From contig CP014761.1 of the NCBI GenBank assembly GCA_001647635.1, positions 1,612,001 through 1,676,000 on the forward strand: a stretch of 64,000 nt of DNA, read 5' to 3'. Of this stretch, positions 37,572 through 45,681 are shown in pieces. Below the pieces are notes generated by a model. It saw only the letters and a list, made by a program, of their open reading frames with translations, did not search any database and was not told where the DNA came from. Source of the stretch: Leifsonia xyli. GTDB taxonomy: Bacteria > Actinomycetota > Actinomycetes > Actinomycetales > Microbacteriaceae. Made by a program: the position numbers and the translations under genes. Numbering within the stretch: the first letter of the stretch is position 1; each line of letters begins with the position of its first letter.

Positions 37572-39800
37572 GTGCGCTCGGCCGAGCGCTTCGAGGAACG
37601 AGCGCACTTGATCCGAATCGCGTCGGGACACCGCCGTGTTCTCACCCCTCTGATCGCGAGCGCAAGTGCGCTGGCTGCCCTCACCGCCCTGCTCGGGTTC
37701 GCGGCACCTGCATCTGCCTCGATCTCGGTGGGCCTGGTCCCCACGAACCCCATCACGCCCGCTGCAGGCTCGATGTCCGTCGCCGTCGACAGTTCGACCG
37801 GAATCATCTACTCGTCGGGTTACAGGTCCGAGGAACTGGACGTGATAAACGGCGCCACGAACGCACTGATCGCGGCCATCCCGCTCGGGTTCCCAACCGG
37901 CTCCCTCCGCCAAGAATCTGTTGCCGTCGACCCGGTCACGCACGCCGTCTACGTCATCAGCCCGTCGAGCGCCCAGGTTGCGGTGATCGACGGTTCCACG
38001 AACACGATCACCGCGACGATCGCTCTGCCGGCGGTGGCGACGGGGGTCGCGGTCAATCCGCAGACTGGCCGCGTGTACCTGGCGTCGGCAGGTGCCGTGT
38101 TCGTCCTGGACGGCGCGACGAATGCTGTGACGTCCATCGCGGTGCCGGCGACGGCGTGGGTGTCGGTGAACAGTGTCACGAACACGGTATACGCGACATC
38201 CAGCACGGGTCTGGCCGTCATCGACGGCGCCACCGCCACCGTCCGGGCAAGCGTCCCGATCAGCGGCACGGTGTACGGCGTCACAGCCGACGAGGCGAAC
38301 AACGATGTGTATACGTGGGGTCAACCGCCGAACGTCGCGGGTGGCCTGCTGGTCGAGACGATCGTCAGCGGAGCGACCGACACGATCATCGGGACGATTC
38401 CCAATGGCGGGAAAACCGCCGTGAACACCGCCACGGACCAGGTGTTCATCGCCGCATTCCCGAGCGACCTCGTCGACGTGGACGGTGCCACGAACACCGT
38501 CGTCGGCGATGTTCTAGATTCTACAGCCGGTTCCGGAGAGCAACTCGCCGTCAATCAGTCGACCGGCAATGTGTACATGCCGACCGCGCTCGACATCCGT
38601 GTGTACTCTGCACCGATCGCCATCACCTCCGCTGCACCCTCGGCTTCACTGGTGCAAGGCGTGGAGTACTCGGAGCGGCTCGCCGCTAGCGGGGTCGGCG
38701 CGATCGCCTACGCCGTCACCAGCGGGACCCTCCCCACGGGCATCGCACTCGACGGCGCGAGCGGCATCCTTTCGGGCGTGCCGGCGGCCGGTGGCACGTT
38801 CTCGTATTCGATCACCGCCACCGATGCCATCGGCGGGGCTGTCACCAAGGCGTACTCGCAACGGGTGATCGGCATCGATCGCGTTGCAGGCGACGACCGG
38901 TACAGCACATCGGTAGCGGTGTCCGAGCAGGAGTATCCGGCCGGTGCGCCTGTCGTGTTCATCGCGAACGGGCAGAACTTCCCGGATGCCCTCTCGGCCG
39001 GGCCCGCGGCGGCTGCGATGGGCGGCCCGGTTCTGCTGACCGCGCCCGGCTGGCTCCCCGCTCAGGTCTCGGACGAAATCTCCCGGCTGAAGCCGAGCAA
39101 GATCGTCGTCGTCGGCGGGACGGCATCCGTGAGCACGTCGGTGTTCAGCGCACTGCGCGGTCTGGTGTCCGACACGGTGCGCTGGGCGGGCGCCGACCGT
39201 TACGCCACAAGCCGCGCTGTCGCCGCGAACGCCTTCCCCGATGGCTCCGACGGCGTGTTCATCGCCACCGCCATCAACTTCCCGGATGCACTGGCTGCAG
39301 GAGCGGTCGCGGCATCGTTCCGGGAGCCCATCCTCCTCCTCGACGGGCGCGAGCCGTGGCTCTCGGACGCCGACGTCACCGCGCTGAACGCGCTCGGTCC
39401 GTCCCGTGTCGACATCGTAGGCGGCCCGGCGAGCGTCTCGAGCGGTGTCGAGGCCGACCTCAGCACCGGCGGAGCGGTCGTGTCGCGCTGGGCCGGTCAG
39501 GACCGTTACGAAACGGCAGAGCGGCTCAATGAGGGGTTCTACAACACCAGCGGGACCAACGGAGCCCAGCCGGGGTCCACCACCGTGTTCCTCGCGACCG
39601 GGACCAATTTCCCCGACGCGCTCAGCGCCGGGCCGTGGGCCGGAGGGATCGCTGTGGCACCGCTCTACTCGGTGCCGCCCGGGTGCGTCCCGCAACAGGT
39701 GCTCTCACAAATCAACGGCCTCGGCGCGACGCAAGTCGTCCTCATCGGAGGGACGGCGACGCTCACATCGGACGTCGCTGCGCTCACGCCCTGCGGGTGA
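37572..39800 (+). CDS. Surface protein: beta-propeller plus CWB2 repeats
   Basis: 742 residues. A signal sequence (about residues 22-49) is followed by a beta-propeller of YVTN/NHL type with repeats such as VAVDPVTHAVYV, VAVNPQTGRVYL and VSVNSVTNTVYA. An immunoglobulin-like putative-Ig domain comes next (LAASGVGAIAYAVTSGTLPTG). Three C-terminal cell-wall-binding type 2 (CWB2) repeats follow, each with an R-xxG-xDRY start, FPDALSAGP-like centre and VVGGTASVS-like end. CWB2 repeats anchor proteins non-covalently to the wall. The GTG start is tentative because no strong ribosome binding site is seen. Confidence 0.9.
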   Translation: MRSAERFEERAHLIRIASGHRRVLTPLIASASALAALTALLGFAAPASASISVGLVPTNPITPAAGSMSVAVDSSTGIIYSSGYRSEELDVINGATNALIAAIPLGFPTGSLRQESVAVDPVTHAVYVISPSSAQVAVIDGSTNTITATIALPAVATGVAVNPQTGRVYLASAGAVFVLDGATNAVTSIAVPATAWVSVNSVTNTVYATSSTGLAVIDGATATVRASVPISGTVYGVTADEANNDVYTWGQPPNVAGGLLVETIVSGATDTIIGTIPNGGKTAVNTATDQVFIAAFPSDLVDVDGATNTVVGDVLDSTAGSGEQLAVNQSTGNVYMPTALDIRVYSAPIAITSAAPSASLVQGVEYSERLAASGVGAIAYAVTSGTLPTGIALDGASGILSGVPAAGGTFSYSITATDAIGGAVTKAYSQRVIGIDRVAGDDRYSTSVAVSEQEYPAGAPVVFIANGQNFPDALSAGPAAAAMGGPVLLTAPGWLPAQVSDEISRLKPSKIVVVGGTASVSTSVFSALRGLVSDTVRWAGADRYATSRAVAANAFPDGSDGVFIATAINFPDALAAGAVAASFREPILLLDGREPWLSDADVTALNALGPSRVDIVGGPASVSSGVEADLSTGGAVVSRWAGQDRYETAERLNEGFYNTSGTNGAQPGSTTVFLATGTNFPDALSAGPWAGGIAVAPLYSVPPGCVPQQVLSQINGLGATQVVLIGGTATLTSDVAALTPCG

Positions 39801-39823: not shown

Positions 39824-42091
39824 TCACCCCCTCGAGAACACCAGCCAGTTCACGTTGACGAATTCGTTCGCGGTCCCCGTGCCTGCGCCGACGAAGCGGA
39901 GGTACACCCGCTGCGACCCCGTCGGCGCGAGGGCGAGGCGGGTCGTCCTCGTCACCCAGTTCTGCCATCCACCCGTCGACGAGACGGGGATGCGGGCGAG
40001 CACCGCTCCGGCGGGAGACCCCGTGCGCACCTCGATGGTCCCCGTCGCGGTGGCGCCGGAGGCGAGGCGCACGGACACCGATGCCGGGGCGGTGCTCCCG
40101 AAGTCCACGTCGAACCAGCCGGCGAAGTCGCCGTCGGCGAGGTGGGCGAGGGCGCGGCCGCACGCCGTGTCTGCGCAGTTCTCGGTGGCGGTGCCGCGCT
40201 GGTCGTCGTAGTAGACGGCGCCGATCGTGTCGTACGCGGACTGGCCGGTCGTGGGATGGAGTCCGTAGCCGGCGGAGAAGAGGGCGTTCTGCCCGTCTCC
40301 CGCGTTGATGGGCTGCTGGCCGGCGTCGTGCATCCACGTCACCGGCAGCGTTCCCGTCGCCGGGACCGCGCCGTAGAGGACGTCCGCGATGCCGGCGCCC
40401 TCCGTGCCCGGCAGCCACGCCTCGACGGCGGCGCGGACGGACCCGAGCAGCTCGTCGATATCGAGCGGGCGTCCGCTCAGCATCACCAGCGTCACCGGGA
40501 CGCCGGACGCGCTGACCCGATCGATCAGGGCCCGGTCGATCGCACTCAGCCGCATATCGCCGGTGTCGTCGCCCTCGTACTCCGCGTACGGTTTCTCGCC
40601 GACCACGACGACGGCATCGTGGTAGCTCTGGTCGATGCCGGACCCGTCGGGCGAATAGGTGACCGTGGTGCCCGGGGACACGGCGGCGCGGATCCCGCCG
40701 AGGATCGTCGTCCCCGGCTCGATCGGACCGAGCGAGCCCTGCCACCCCATGGTCCAGCCGCCGGACTGCTGGCCGATGTCGTTCGCGCCGCTTCCGGCGA
40801 CGAAGACCTTGCTCGCGCTCCTCGGCAGCGGCAGGAGCCCGCGGTCGTTCTTCAGCACGACGGTCGATTCGGCGACGGCCTGGCGGGCGAGTGCGCGGTG
40901 CGCGGACGAGCCGACCTGACCCGCGAGGGATCGGTCCGCGTACGGGTGCTCGAACAACCCCTTCTCGAACTTCTTGGTCAGGATGCGGGAGACGGCGTCG
41001 TCGATGCGCGCCCTCGAGACCCGGCCGGCGTGCACCTCGGCGACGAGTTCGGCGTGGAAGTACGAGTACTCGTCGGGCACCATCACGAGGTCGATGCCCG
41101 CGTTGACGGCCGTGCGCACGTCGTAGGCCGACAGGGTGGTCTTGTCGCCGTCCAGATAGTCGACGCCGCCGTAGTCGGAGACGAGGATGCCGGAGAAGCC
41201 GAGCTCCTTCTTCAGCACGTCGGTGAGGAGGTACTTGTCGCCGTGGAGGCGAGCGCCGTTCCAGCTCGAATAGCTCACCATCACCGCCGAGACGCCGCGG
41301 CGAACGGCCTCCTGGAACGGCGGCAGGTGGATGGCCCGCAGTTCGGCCTCGCTCAGCTGGGTGTTCCCGCGGTCGTCGCCACCGGTCGTCCCGCCGTCGC
41401 CGACGAAGTGCTTGGTCAGCGCCAGGATGGAGTCGGGGGCCGACAGCGACGAGCCCTGCTCCCCGGTCACCATGGTCGTCATCGACGAGACGAGCGCGGG
41501 ATCCTCGCCGAACGACTCGTAGGTGCGCCCCCACCGGTCGTTCCGGACCACGGCCACGGTCGGCGCGAAGTTCATGTCGATGCCGAGCGCGCTGACCTCC
41601 TGGGCGACCGCGTGCCCGATCCGCTGGACGAGCGCGGGGTCGTGCGTCGCACCGAGGCCGATGTTGTGCGGGAAGATCGTTGCTCCGTGCACGTTGCCCG
41701 CGCCGTGCACGGCATCCATCGCGTACAGCATGGGGATGCCGAGGCGGTTGCGCAGGGCGGCCCGCTGGAAGCCGTCGTACATGTCCTCCCAGCCGGCGAC
41801 GGTGTTGCTCGCCGGTGCCGAGGTCCCCGCCGAGAACCCGGCGCCGACCATTCCGCTCGCGAGCCCGTCGTCGGACAGCCAGCGCCGCTCGATGAGGGTC
41901 ATCTGGCCGATCTTCTCGTCGAGCGTCATCCGGCCCAGGAGGTCGGCGACCCGCGTCGGAACGCTCTCGGTCGGATCCTGATACGGAAGGGGCGCCGCGT
42001 TCGCCGACGTGGGGACTCCCACGATGAGGGCGGCGCCGACGAGAGCGGCGGCCGTGGCCGCGATCGTGCGGGGATGCATCCGGATGTTCAC
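39824..42091 (-). CDS. Secreted glycoside hydrolase family 3 enzyme
   Basis: 755 residues from a GTG with AAGGAG six bases upstream. A signal peptide (about 1-33) precedes a GH3 catalytic barrel with GGTTGGDDRGNTQLSEAEL and the nucleophile region FSGILVSDYGGVDYLDGDK. The following alpha/beta sandwich has AVAESTVVLKNDRGLLPLP. The last 130 residues form a carbohydrate-binding-like beta-sandwich (AGWFDVDFGSTAPASVSVRL), a type often found as CBM6. It probably removes beta-linked glucose from glucans outside the cell. It diverges from the glycosyltransferase operon. Confidence 0.92.
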   Translation of the reverse strand: MNIRMHPRTIAATAAALVGAALIVGVPTSANAAPLPYQDPTESVPTRVADLLGRMTLDEKIGQMTLIERRWLSDDGLASGMVGAGFSAGTSAPASNTVAGWEDMYDGFQRAALRNRLGIPMLYAMDAVHGAGNVHGATIFPHNIGLGATHDPALVQRIGHAVAQEVSALGIDMNFAPTVAVVRNDRWGRTYESFGEDPALVSSMTTMVTGEQGSSLSAPDSILALTKHFVGDGGTTGGDDRGNTQLSEAELRAIHLPPFQEAVRRGVSAVMVSYSSWNGARLHGDKYLLTDVLKKELGFSGILVSDYGGVDYLDGDKTTLSAYDVRTAVNAGIDLVMVPDEYSYFHAELVAEVHAGRVSRARIDDAVSRILTKKFEKGLFEHPYADRSLAGQVGSSAHRALARQAVAESTVVLKNDRGLLPLPRSASKVFVAGSGANDIGQQSGGWTMGWQGSLGPIEPGTTILGGIRAAVSPGTTVTYSPDGSGIDQSYHDAVVVVGEKPYAEYEGDDTGDMRLSAIDRALIDRVSASGVPVTLVMLSGRPLDIDELLGSVRAAVEAWLPGTEGAGIADVLYGAVPATGTLPVTWMHDAGQQPINAGDGQNALFSAGYGLHPTTGQSAYDTIGAVYYDDQRGTATENCADTACGRALAHLADGDFAGWFDVDFGSTAPASVSVRLASGATATGTIEVRTGSPAGAVLARIPVSSTGGWQNWVTRTTRLALAPTGSQRVYLRFVGAGTGTANEFVNVNWLVFSRG

Positions 42092-42359: not shown

Positions 42360-43706
42360 ATGTTCCTCCTGGTGAGTGCCATCTCGACGATCCTCGTCGT
42401 CTCGTTCTGCGTTTACGTGATCACGATCCTGATCCCGTTCCTCCGCCGTCGCCGCCAGCCGGCAGGCGACCCGACCGTGTTCGGCTGGCACTTCTTCGTG
42501 CCGTGCCGCGACGAGGAGGCTGTCATCGCCGAGACGATCGAGCGGCTCCGCGGCGACTTCCCCGACGCTCACGTGTGGGTGATCGACGATGACAGCGACG
42601 ACGCCACTGCAGCGATCGTCAGCGAGGCCGCATCCACCGACGACCACGTGCACCTGGTGCAGCGACGCCGCCCGCACGCCCGAACGGGCAAGGGCGACGC
42701 GCTGAACGCCGCCTACGCGCACCTCGACGCCTTCCTCCCCGCCGACGCCGATCGTTCGGCGATCGTCGTCACCGTCATCGACGCGGACGGCCACCTCGCG
42801 CCCAACGCGCTCGCCCAGGTCGCCGGCGACGACGTCTTCGGCAACCCGAAGGTCGGCGCCGCGCAAGTCACCGTGCGGATGCGCAACCGCAACGATCGCG
42901 CGCCGTACCCGCACCGCGGTCGACTGGTCAACGCGGCGGCGCGGTTCCTCATCCGGATGCAGGACATCGAGTTCCGCACCATGATCGCGGCCATGCAGTC
43001 GCTGCGCGAGCGCACCGGCACCGTGGGCCTCGGCGGCAACGGACAGTTCACCCGGCTGTCGACCCTGGATGCGATCAAGGAGTCCTACGGCCAGCCCTGG
43101 CACGGCTCACTGCTCGAAGACTACGAGCTCGGCGTGCACGTGCTGCTCGCCGGCTACGAGAACCGCCATGTCCACGACACGTACGTGTCGCAGGAGGCGC
43201 TCCCCAACTTCCGCCGGTTCGCCACCCAGCGCACGCGGTGGTCGCAGGGCAACATCCAGTGCGTCCGCTACGTGCGCGACATCGTGGTGTCCCCGCACAT
43301 CTCGAGCGCCGGCGTGCTCGAGAGCAGCTACTACCTGATCCTGCCCTTCATCCAGCTGATCGGCTTCTTCACCTGGATCTACCTCACCGTCACCGGCTTC
43401 GCCTCCTTCCTGAACGGCACGACCACCGCACTGTTCACGGACAACTGGGGGCTCGCCATCCTGTTCGCGCTGTTCGGCGTCGGACCGTTCTTCCTCTGGG
43501 GGCCGGTCTACCGCAAGACGTGCGAGCCCGACGCCCCGCTGTGGAAGGGCGTCCTGTGGGGCCTCGGCATGTGGCTCTACGTCTTCTACCTGTACGTCTC
43601 CCTGTCCCGCGCCTTCTTCCGAGTGATCACCGGAAAGAAGGGCTGGGCCAAAACCCGTAGGAACGCCGAAACCATCCGCATCGGCGTCGTCGCAAAGGAG
43701 TGCTGA
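42360..43706 (+). CDS. Processive family 2 glycosyltransferase
   Basis: 448 residues. One N-terminal membrane helix (5-28), then a GT-A domain with FFVPCRDEEAVIAETIERL, VIDDDSDD (about 74-81), the DAD motif at 141-143 (VIDADGHL), ED at 253-254 (SLLEDYELG) and the Q-xx-RW motif at 290-294 (QRTRW). At least three C-terminal membrane helices follow. These are hallmarks of processive synthases such as cellulose, hyaluronan or poly-N-acetylglucosamine synthases. It is the first gene of an operon with an exosortase-family gene three bases downstream. Confidence 0.92.
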   Translation: MFLLVSAISTILVVSFCVYVITILIPFLRRRRQPAGDPTVFGWHFFVPCRDEEAVIAETIERLRGDFPDAHVWVIDDDSDDATAAIVSEAASTDDHVHLVQRRRPHARTGKGDALNAAYAHLDAFLPADADRSAIVVTVIDADGHLAPNALAQVAGDDVFGNPKVGAAQVTVRMRNRNDRAPYPHRGRLVNAAARFLIRMQDIEFRTMIAAMQSLRERTGTVGLGGNGQFTRLSTLDAIKESYGQPWHGSLLEDYELGVHVLLAGYENRHVHDTYVSQEALPNFRRFATQRTRWSQGNIQCVRYVRDIVVSPHISSAGVLESSYYLILPFIQLIGFFTWIYLTVTGFASFLNGTTTALFTDNWGLAILFALFGVGPFFLWGPVYRKTCEPDAPLWKGVLWGLGMWLYVFYLYVSLSRAFFRVITGKKGWAKTRRNAETIRIGVVAKEC

Positions 43707-43709
43707 ACC

Positions 43710-44339
43710 ATGACCACCGCAACCACCGACCTCACTGCCCCGCGCCCCGCCGGAAAGCAGCGCTGGTTCACCCCGATCCGGGCCCTCCGGCTCCTTATCG
43801 CGGCCGCCCTCGCGGCCGTGGTGGCCGGCCTGATCGTCTTCGGCTACGCCACCCGCGTCGCCGAGGCGTGGATCGCATCCACCGTCGCCAACCTCTTCAT
43901 GGACGGGGGCGCGAGCCCACTGCAGGACAGCATCTTCTTCCCGTCGGCGGACGGCCCCTACCATGTCGCCCTCCAAGTCACCGAGCAGTGCGCGGTGTAC
44001 GTGCTCCTGGCACCGTTCCTGCTGCTCATGGCGGTCATGCTCGGCTTCACCCGCGTGAGCTGGCGCCGCTGGGCGGGTGCGACGATCGTAGGCGCTGTCT
44101 TCCTGGTCGTCGTCAACATGCTTCGCCTCGTCTTCATCGCCTTCTCCACCCGCACGTGGGGACTCCACCCGGGCTACGAGCTGAGTCACGGGGTGCTGGG
44201 ATCCGCCTTCGGCATCATCGGCTTCGCGGTCGCCAGCGTGGTCGCGCTCATGGTCCTCTCGCCGAGGAAGCAGCGCCAGGCGCGCAAGCTCGCGAAGGCC
44301 GCGGCCCGCGAGTCGGCCCGGGAGGGAGAGGAGCGATGA
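43710..44339 (+). CDS. Exosortase/archaeosortase-family membrane protein
   Basis: 209 residues with about five membrane helices. The triad typical of this family is intact: Cys94 in VTEQCAVYVLLAP, Arg139 in VNMLRLVFIAF and His160 in YELSHGVLGS. Exosortases are thought to cut and re-anchor proteins with a C-terminal sorting signal as they leave the membrane, coupled to a polysaccharide system. Pairing with a glycosyltransferase is known for XrtG-type loci in Firmicutes. The exact subfamily here was not determined. No substrate with a PEP-CTERM-like tail was noticed in this window. Confidence 0.85.
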   Translation: MTTATTDLTAPRPAGKQRWFTPIRALRLLIAAALAAVVAGLIVFGYATRVAEAWIASTVANLFMDGGASPLQDSIFFPSADGPYHVALQVTEQCAVYVLLAPFLLLMAVMLGFTRVSWRRWAGATIVGAVFLVVVNMLRLVFIAFSTRTWGLHPGYELSHGVLGSAFGIIGFAVASVVALMVLSPRKQRQARKLAKAAARESAREGEER

Positions 44340-45016
44340 TGCGCATCCACGACAGCCTCCGCGCCGTCGCCCCCGCTCTCCGATCGCGGCTGGTCGGCAA
44401 CCCCGAGACTTCTTTCCGACTCGACGCGATGCGGACCGCCGGAGTGATTCTCGTCGACCTGGCGATGATCCTCGTCGGCGCGAGCCTCCTCTGGCTCTAC
44501 CCGACCGGCGAGAGCCTTGCCAGCGTGAGCCCTCTCGGCGCGCTGCTGTTCATCCTGGCCACAGCCGGCTTCCTGTTCGTGCGCAACCGGCTGCATCTCA
44601 GCCCGGCGGCGGACGGCGGCGGCCGGCCCGAGCCCCGCCGACCCCTGCTGGCGGTGGAAGTCGGGCGCACGCTCATCCTGGTAGCCGCCGCCCTCGCTTC
44701 CCTCGGGTGGGGCTCGTACTTCGCACAGTGGGTCGCCGCCTACGCGACGGTCGCCGCGGCGACGCTCGCGGCCATCTCGCTCATCTCCTCCATCGCGGTG
44801 GGGAGCCGTGGGATGCGGCTCGCCGGCGGGACGGTGACCTTCGTCGGCAGCCTCATCGGCATCGTGCTCACCAGCGGTGTGCACGGATTCGACCCGCACA
44901 TCTTCGGAACCGTCGCCGTGCTTCTGCTCGCCTCCCTCTTCCTCAGCCGGATCATCTCCTTCTGGTTCGAGGTCACCGTCAACCCGCGGGCGACCGCGGA
45001 CCGGACGGCATCATGA
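44336..45016 (+). CDS. Unknown multi-pass membrane protein
   Basis: 226 residues with six to seven hydrophobic helices, starting at an ATG that overlaps the exosortase stop (ATGATG) and preceded by GGAGGGAGAGGAG. The N-terminus MMRIHDSLRAVAPALRSRLV is cytoplasmic and amphipathic. No catalytic motif or family was recognised. Its fixed place between exosortase and sortase-like genes with 4-bp overlaps at both ends argues that it is part of the same machine. Confidence 0.72.
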   Translation: MMRIHDSLRAVAPALRSRLVGNPETSFRLDAMRTAGVILVDLAMILVGASLLWLYPTGESLASVSPLGALLFILATAGFLFVRNRLHLSPAADGGGRPEPRRPLLAVEVGRTLILVAAALASLGWGSYFAQWVAAYATVAAATLAAISLISSIAVGSRGMRLAGGTVTFVGSLIGIVLTSGVHGFDPHIFGTVAVLLLASLFLSRIISFWFEVTVNPRATADRTAS

Positions 45017-45681
45017 GCACCCGGCGCACGACGACAGGCGCGCCGTCCCGGCGGCGGCGCGCCTGGCCGCAGCTGCTTGCCGGGGTTGCACTCATCCTCG
45101 CAGCGGTCGGAGTGATGACACTCGTGCTGACGCCCCACGGCACAGCCGAGGGAACGGTCGATCTGCGGGGCAACCCCGTCTCGACCGACGACGCGACACT
45201 CTCACCGGAAGCGGTCGCGGCCGCCGCGCCGGAGCCGGTCGCCGGTGTCCGCTTCGCTGTGCCTTCGGTCGGCCTCGACGTCGCCATGGAGGAGCTCACG
45301 GCGACCGCCGCCGATATCGAGCCACCGGGCTTCACTTCTGTGTACCACCTGCGGAACCACGGCACGGCGCTCGACAAGCCGGAGGCGGGGACGCTCTTCC
45401 TGCTGACCCACTCCATCCGAGGCGGCGGTCTCGCTCCCGGCAACGCCCTCATCGACGTGAAGAACCAGCGCTCGGCCGTCTCGATCGGCGCGACGATCTC
45501 CGTCGGCGCGGACACCTACCGGGTGACAGGCACCGAGGTCATCTCGAAGCCCGATCTCGCACACCGAAGTGACGTATGGTCGGACACGCCTGGTCGACTC
45601 GTGCTCATCACCTGCCTGCAGAACCCGCAGGGAACGCCGTCGCAGAACAACCTCGTCCTCACCGCCCAGCTCGAGCAGTGA
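45013..45681 (+). CDS. Sortase-like protein
   Basis: 222 residues. A basic N-terminus and one membrane helix (about 21-40) precede a class E/F sortase-type beta barrel. His133 in TLFLLTHSIRGG and Cys201 in RLVLITCLQNPQG are in the catalytic places. The usual Arg before the last strand seems to be Asn (QNNLVLTAQ, residues 211-219). It may use another residue, act on a different donor or be a regulator. Start ATG overlaps the upstream stop by 4 bp. Its presence beside an exosortase-family gene is unusual. Confidence 0.8.
   Translation: MSTRRTTTGAPSRRRRAWPQLLAGVALILAAVGVMTLVLTPHGTAEGTVDLRGNPVSTDDATLSPEAVAAAAPEPVAGVRFAVPSVGLDVAMEELTATAADIEPPGFTSVYHLRNHGTALDKPEAGTLFLLTHSIRGGGLAPGNALIDVKNQRSAVSIGATISVGADTYRVTGTEVISKPDLAHRSDVWSDTPGRLVLITCLQNPQGTPSQNNLVLTAQLEQ

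Follow-up and report, generated by a model that had tools for sequence, protein, structure and literature searches.

What does a walled actinobacterium do with an operon that sets a processive-type glycosyltransferase (GT) beside an exosortase and a sortase? Such an operon of four genes lies in the stretch analysed here, 64,000 nucleotides of Leifsonia xyli (contig CP014761.1, positions 1,612,001 to 1,676,000; hereafter the window), from a genome that is a single contig of 3.6 Mb. Judged from its sequence, the operon encodes a GT2 enzyme of processive type and its probable membrane partner, together with an exosortase and with a sortase of a VxTGG-associated family. We regard it as reasonably probable that a surface-assembly system is split in this genome, with these genes supplying its enzymes and with its substrates encoded elsewhere.

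The operon and its products

The GT (42360–43706, 448 residues) is followed after a 3-base gap by an exosortase-family protein (43710–44339, 209 residues) and then, through two 4-base overlaps, by a six-helix membrane protein of unknown function, MP3 (44336–45016), and by the sortase (45013–45681), all on the + strand; this is the tight linkage described in the first-pass annotation. The GT is a member of the XrtP-associated GT family NF053846 (664.3 bits against a cut-off of 520, residues 3–437), a match that is beyond chance, since the cut-off was reached in none of 14 control genomes. PF13641 and PF13632 both score above cut-off, and the previously noted DAD, ED and Q-xx-RW motifs were located at residues 141 (with another DAD at 129), 253 and 290 (QRTRW).

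The exosortase belongs to the exosortase/archaeosortase superfamily (TIGR04178, 41.4 bits, cut-off 23) and stays below the cut-offs of PF09721 (18.3 of 25.7), XrtS (85.4 of 145), XrtR (71.5 of 150) and XrtP (54.5 of 200); we assign it to an unnamed subfamily near XrtS/XrtR. A Curtobacterium exosortase (L175) passes XrtS with 193.7 bits. Cys94, Arg139 and His160, named in the first-pass annotation, are all present, and are kept in 12, 12 and 11, respectively, of 12 aligned exosortases. The exosortase tree unites the window protein with those of Microbacterium mangrovi and of G008, a genome of the window's genus, in one clade (support 100/98). With the window exosortase as query, a search of its genome at E 0.001 detected only that protein; a PF09721 search of that genome gave zero matches and missed the window exosortase itself.

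The last protein, earlier called sortase-like, is predicted by fold search to have the sortase beta-barrel fold and falls in the sortase superfamily, with one N-terminal helix and a catalytic domain at residues ~72–222. The Pfam model Sortase (PF04203, cut-off 26.6) gives no match to it at E 1, although it finds two other sortases in the window genome and a distant relative of the operon sortase in L128 (67.9 bits). His133, Thr200 and Cys201 are invariant in 21 aligned sequences of the sortase family, and the fold together with the TC motif suggests that His133 and Cys201 form the catalytic pair. Asn213 is nearly invariant in the same alignment and probably occupies the place at which the catalytic arginine of a sortase would be expected.

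Relatives of this sortase occur in 31 of 398 genomes sampled from the bacterial family (window genome included) and at 56 named loci. An open reading frame (ORF) with V-x-T-G-G, a helix and a basic tail lies within 1.5 kb of the sortase in 38 of 73 distinct members; any x-x-T-G-G tail is present in 46, and the same scan gives none in 27. Over all loci, 271 called proteins have a C-terminal helix followed by a basic tail, and V.TGG is present in 53 of them; this set includes the sortase neighbours themselves and so is no independent background. Since most of these loci lack an exosortase, the VxTGG motif is independent of the exosortase. The window sortase thus points to a family with its own motif, unnamed by the Pfam and NCBIfam models used here, and VxTGG is likely the signal that the family recognizes.

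MP3, like the sortase, has no credible Pfam or NCBIfam family. Its predicted structure is all-helical (pLDDT, the predicted local distance difference test score, 79), and a fold search with it returned no informative match. Seven of the eight MP3 homologues in the fetched loci adjoin an XrtP-type GT that scores above cut-off, and the eighth, in M. mangrovi, adjoins an unscored GT that is 74% identical to the window GT; MP3 is therefore a probable GT partner. One of the seven pairs is a second pair in the window genome (L051:6739-10198, ~2.476 Mb), where the GT is followed by the MP3 homologue, a DUF4434 protein (PF14488, 79.5 bits) lies upstream and the 18-kb stretch carries no exosortase.

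Retention of the exosortase near the GT had been proposed as a check, and it is the rule. An exosortase is found on the fetched stretch around 10 of 11 over-cut-off GT genes in 28 genomes of the genus and around 7 of 10 further ones in the 398-genome sample, the GTs without it being the second GT of the window genome and those of G163, G317 and G165. Genes of the relatives were called by a home-made caller, which misses or truncates some. In G017, a genome of 2.6 Mb with several exosortase/GT loci (L054–L057), some GT genes are broken by stop codons, suggesting decay; at four loci (L053, L058, L067 and L134), large proteins of ~830–860 residues with C-termini that look LuxR-like by eye adjoin exosortase loci.

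Probable substrates encoded away from the operon

Among the 56 named loci, three have an exosortase match near the sortase, one of M. mangrovi and two of Curtobacterium, and in G008 the sortase also adjoins an exosortase (51 and 52% identity). The M. mangrovi order is sortase, regulator, two further genes, candidate exosortase target, a very small protein (hereafter mini), GT (74% identity to the window), exosortase (43%), MP3 (37%) and WecB-type epimerase, so that the GT-exosortase-MP3 order of the window recurs; the Curtobacterium loci run from target and mini through GT and exosortase to two further genes, an epimerase and the sortase. The window itself contains no ORF with V.TGG or L[AP].TG followed by a helix and a basic tail.

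Minis, which were re-read from the reading frame itself, are encoded in many relatives' exosortase loci. They have 50–75 residues and consist of a Met-Tyr start, a short glycine-rich segment, a motif, a helix and an Arg-rich tail; the segment outside the membrane would span ~12–26 residues, and all minis read start with Met-Tyr except two in the family sample, which begin Met-Ser-Gly. The usual motif is LAxTG, an experimentally established class E sortase signal (excerpt of PMC5148588). At the loci with both sortase and exosortase it differs, reading SVATGG in M. mangrovi and SVMTGG in each of the two Curtobacterium. A mini in the window genome was searched for after VxTGG had been seen in these minis, and the mini profile gave one strong match (E 7.5e-20; next best 0.0018): a protein of 55 residues with the motif GVMTGG (VMTGG) and 12 outside residues, encoded at 3,272,099–3,272,260, 1.6 Mb from the operon. 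A further mini, in G119, reads PSVLTGG, with a sortase homologue on a different contig. The window-genome mini scores 20.8 bits (E 2.2e-4) and that of G235 37.5 bits against the LAXTG small-protein model NF058583, below its cut-off of 65.

The Ig-domain protein that adjoins the mini (L196:7822-9069) ends in SPVVEPAGLLL-helix-RRRR. A profile built from ten exosortase-target tails, with this protein in the query, matched in the window genome the L196 protein and a second Ig-domain protein that was not in the query (E 3.9e-6; tail at 170,316–170,423, GPIVEPGGLAL-helix-RRRRR, GGPIVEPGGLALAG-helix-RRRRR). Bacterial Ig domains are present in both. The next match, at E 0.026, is an LPFTG-tailed protein adjoining one of the two PF04203 sortases. 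The profile search has thus yielded two PVVEP-type proteins, and the exosortase very probably acts on both. Against the PVV-CTERM model NF051874 (cut-off 27), the targets of L311 and M. mangrovi score 18.4 and 23.2, and the L196 target gives no match at E 1.

A proposed division of labour and its alternatives

That the system builds a glycan and fixes proteins onto it, as had been proposed from the operon alone, is still an inference. In this scheme, the GT and MP3 would make and export a surface glycan, and the exosortase would cut the PVVEP-type tails and join the proteins to that glycan or some other acceptor on the membrane side. The sortase would cut the mini between T and G and attach the outside segment, 12 residues long, to the cell wall, and the mini would serve as the wall tether of the glycan-protein structure. 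In genomes without a dedicated sortase, the mini would retain LAxTG, and that step would fall to the housekeeping class E sortase. The mini, not the exosortase targets, is most likely what the operon sortase acts on, and we hold action on the mini to be likely in its own right; its role as wall tether of the glycan or the targets is tentative, at a little under even chance.

The assignment of sortase to mini leans on the motif following the enzyme. Among the matches listed, which comprise 30 mini genomes in a table compiled by hand from several searches, VxTGG minis occur in 5 of 10 genomes with the close sortase family vs 0 of 20 without it (Fisher 0.0018). Matches inside larger frames (e.g. 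G059, G048, G294, G459 and G474) were kept out of the mini count, and four genomes that have distant sortase homologues only (G002, G015, G025 and G166) were entered as without sortase. Three of the five VxTGG-mini genomes had been found via the sortase; with sortase-found genomes excluded, the counts among the matches listed are 2 of 5 vs 0 of 20 (Fisher 0.033). On the exosortase tree the VxTGG-mini genomes form two groups that lie apart, with one origin in 0% of 200 bootstraps. The sortase tree, which left out 11 loci (long branches, a distant group and one duplicate), further duplicates and rows below 60 bits, pairs the window with G008 (100/99), groups M. mangrovi with L. shinshuensis G026 (99/87) and keeps Curtobacterium separate, a single origin of the exosortase-linked sortases appearing in 0% of bootstrap trees.

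Several observations weigh against this assignment. The approximately unbiased test does not reject one origin of the exosortase-linked sortases (p 0.071), and the genomes are not independent, the two Curtobacterium being close kin. Counting G002, G015, G025 and G166 as sortase-bearing lowers the contrast among the matches listed to 5 of 14 vs 0 of 16 (one-sided p ~0.014). Half of the ten genomes with both sortase and mini carry an LAxTG mini (G008, G010, G019, Arthrobacter bambusae G493 and M. testaceum G470). This is unsurprising in three of them, G010, A. bambusae and M. testaceum, because there the sortase adjoins its own VxTGG protein; in G010 and G019 the sortase lies near large proteins with VNTGG and LPLTG signals. 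G008 is a counter-example: its sortase adjoins the exosortase and has no VxTGG neighbour by the scan, yet its mini reads VMAGGALAVTG. A near-LAxTG sequence, MASTG, is also retained in the window-genome mini. The A. bambusae mini (L284 and L289) is LTTGGAVAGGGTLAVTG, with a TTGG stretch besides LAVTG.

The link between mini and exosortase is similarly two-sided. Of 28 loci, most of them fetched for a GT or exosortase match, 26 have a mini no more than 6 kb from an exosortase, and the genes overlap in several. Of five loci fetched for the mini alone, one has an exosortase. Minis in G235, G106 and G441 adjoin a PgaC-like GT on 18-kb stretches on which no exosortase was found, that of G025 stands beside a GT on a 16-kb stretch without exosortase, and that of G002 is beside neither. 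The minis beside PgaC-like GTs without an exosortase suggest that the mini's tie to the glycan is no weaker than its tie to the exosortase. The LAxTG minis (MYQ...) of L063, L065 and L072 argue the opposite way; they overlap or adjoin an exosortase on stretches that carry an epimerase-like gene and no GT. In three genomes (L307:9031-10524, L308:6784-8547 and L309:7639-9135), a PgaC-like GT without an exosortase is followed directly by an LAxTG mini, and in two of them a nearby secreted protein has weak, below-cut-off ZirU-family matches.

The sortase could instead serve some ordinary, large surface protein with VxTGG that is encoded elsewhere; it would then sit with the exosortase by accident or for shared regulation only. 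The V.TGG-tailed neighbours of the family are as a rule large surface proteins, and the family is usually without a mini, a mini-profile match (E 1e-6) being present in 7 of 49 named sortase genomes (five minis and two partial matches to larger frames). We nevertheless consider this unlikely, since the window has no such substrate, M. mangrovi, Curtobacterium and G008 also have the sortase linked to an exosortase, and the window-genome mini bears VMTGG.

Another reading turns the mini into a relay, with the exosortase joining the target's new C-terminus to the outside Met-Tyr N-terminus of the mini before the sortase joins the mini to the wall. The proximity of mini and exosortase genes, the short outside segment and the near-constant Met-Tyr start make a linker role plausible, while the minis beside GTs without an exosortase and the single exosortase among the five loci fetched for the mini alone count against it, and we know of no exosortase for which use of a peptide amine has been demonstrated. 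This reading is improbable, and we give equally slim odds to its wider form, in which two unrelated transpeptidases act in series: the exosortase passes PVVEP proteins to the outside N-terminus of the mini, or to a mini-borne glycan, and the mini is thereafter cut by the VxTGG sortase and linked to peptidoglycan. If true, a Gram-positive exosortase would have its missing acceptor in the mini.

Least probable of all is that the mini serves the GT or the exosortase as a small subunit or a regulator, its sortase-like motif being a by-product of helix-flanking sequence: its very short length, its close linkage to both genes and the passing of the LPXTG model TIGR01167 by only one of the three minis first scanned would fit, but LAxTG is the established class E motif cited above and, among the matches listed, VxTGG minis are confined to sortase-family genomes.

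WecB-type epimerases recur in relatives' loci, pointing to an N-acetylmannosamine-type sugar there; none was seen adjoining the window operon. Divergent from the operon and ~268 bases off (start as called) lies a GH3 glycosidase with CBM6 (39824–42091, − strand), which could act on the same glycan. Beyond it, at 37572–39800 on the + strand, a secreted protein combines weak matches to YncE-type beta-propeller repeats with an Ig-type domain and with three stretches of the wall-binding CWB2 type.

Relation to described systems

The nearest counterparts are the XrtP/XrtR/XrtS systems of actinobacteria (NF012139, NF012138, NF033767, NF053846), which share with the window genome the GT family above cut-off, the wider exosortase family, PVV-type tails and, in the window's relatives, a small LAxTG protein. 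Unlike them, the window genome has an exosortase below all three cut-offs, a dedicated sortase in the operon, a VMTGG mini and unlinked substrates. The XrtG loci of Firmicutes (TIGR03110 exosortase, TIGR03111 GT), which the first-pass annotation took for comparison, also have an exosortase adjoining a GT in a one-membrane bacterium; however, the window exosortase scores 16 bits of 102.75 with TIGR03110, TIGR03111 is absent from the families listed for the window GT, and we know of no sortase in XrtG loci. They are not the nearest counterparts, as NCBIfam already covers the actinobacterial exosortase-GT pairing. In contrast to the class E sortases of LAXTG anchoring (SrtE of Streptomyces), the window sortase is missed by PF04203, goes with VxTGG and has an asparagine at what is probably the place of the expected arginine.

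The PEP-CTERM/EpsH exosortase and archaeosortase A systems have a tripartite C-terminal tail and a Cys-Arg-His enzyme, as here, and linkage to polysaccharide genes (excerpts of PMC1569441 and PMC9263693). Their hosts are outer-membrane bacteria or archaea, whereas the window's host is an actinobacterium that has a cell wall and pairs its exosortase with a true sortase. Titles and abstract openings in the open-licence literature revealed no work with a sortase in such an operon and none on an exosortase with XrtP, an exosortase with LAXTG, or PVV-CTERM. The suggestion that a sortase-like partner in such an actinobacterial operon is undescribed therefore stands within that literature; the exosortase-GT pairing in actinobacteria is not new. 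We claim novelty only for the sortase coupling and the motif switch; the GT, the exosortases, the PVV-CTERM tails and the small LAXTG protein are already in NCBIfam.

The reaction end point described for archaeosortase A is a lipid, and the open-licence literature searched gave none for a Gram-positive exosortase. A mini whose motif tracks the presence of the sortase is a small handle on the exosortase end point, of a size suited to mass spectrometry, and the operon with its probable distant substrates is a practical starting point for finding the acceptors to which these poorly understood enzymes attach proteins.

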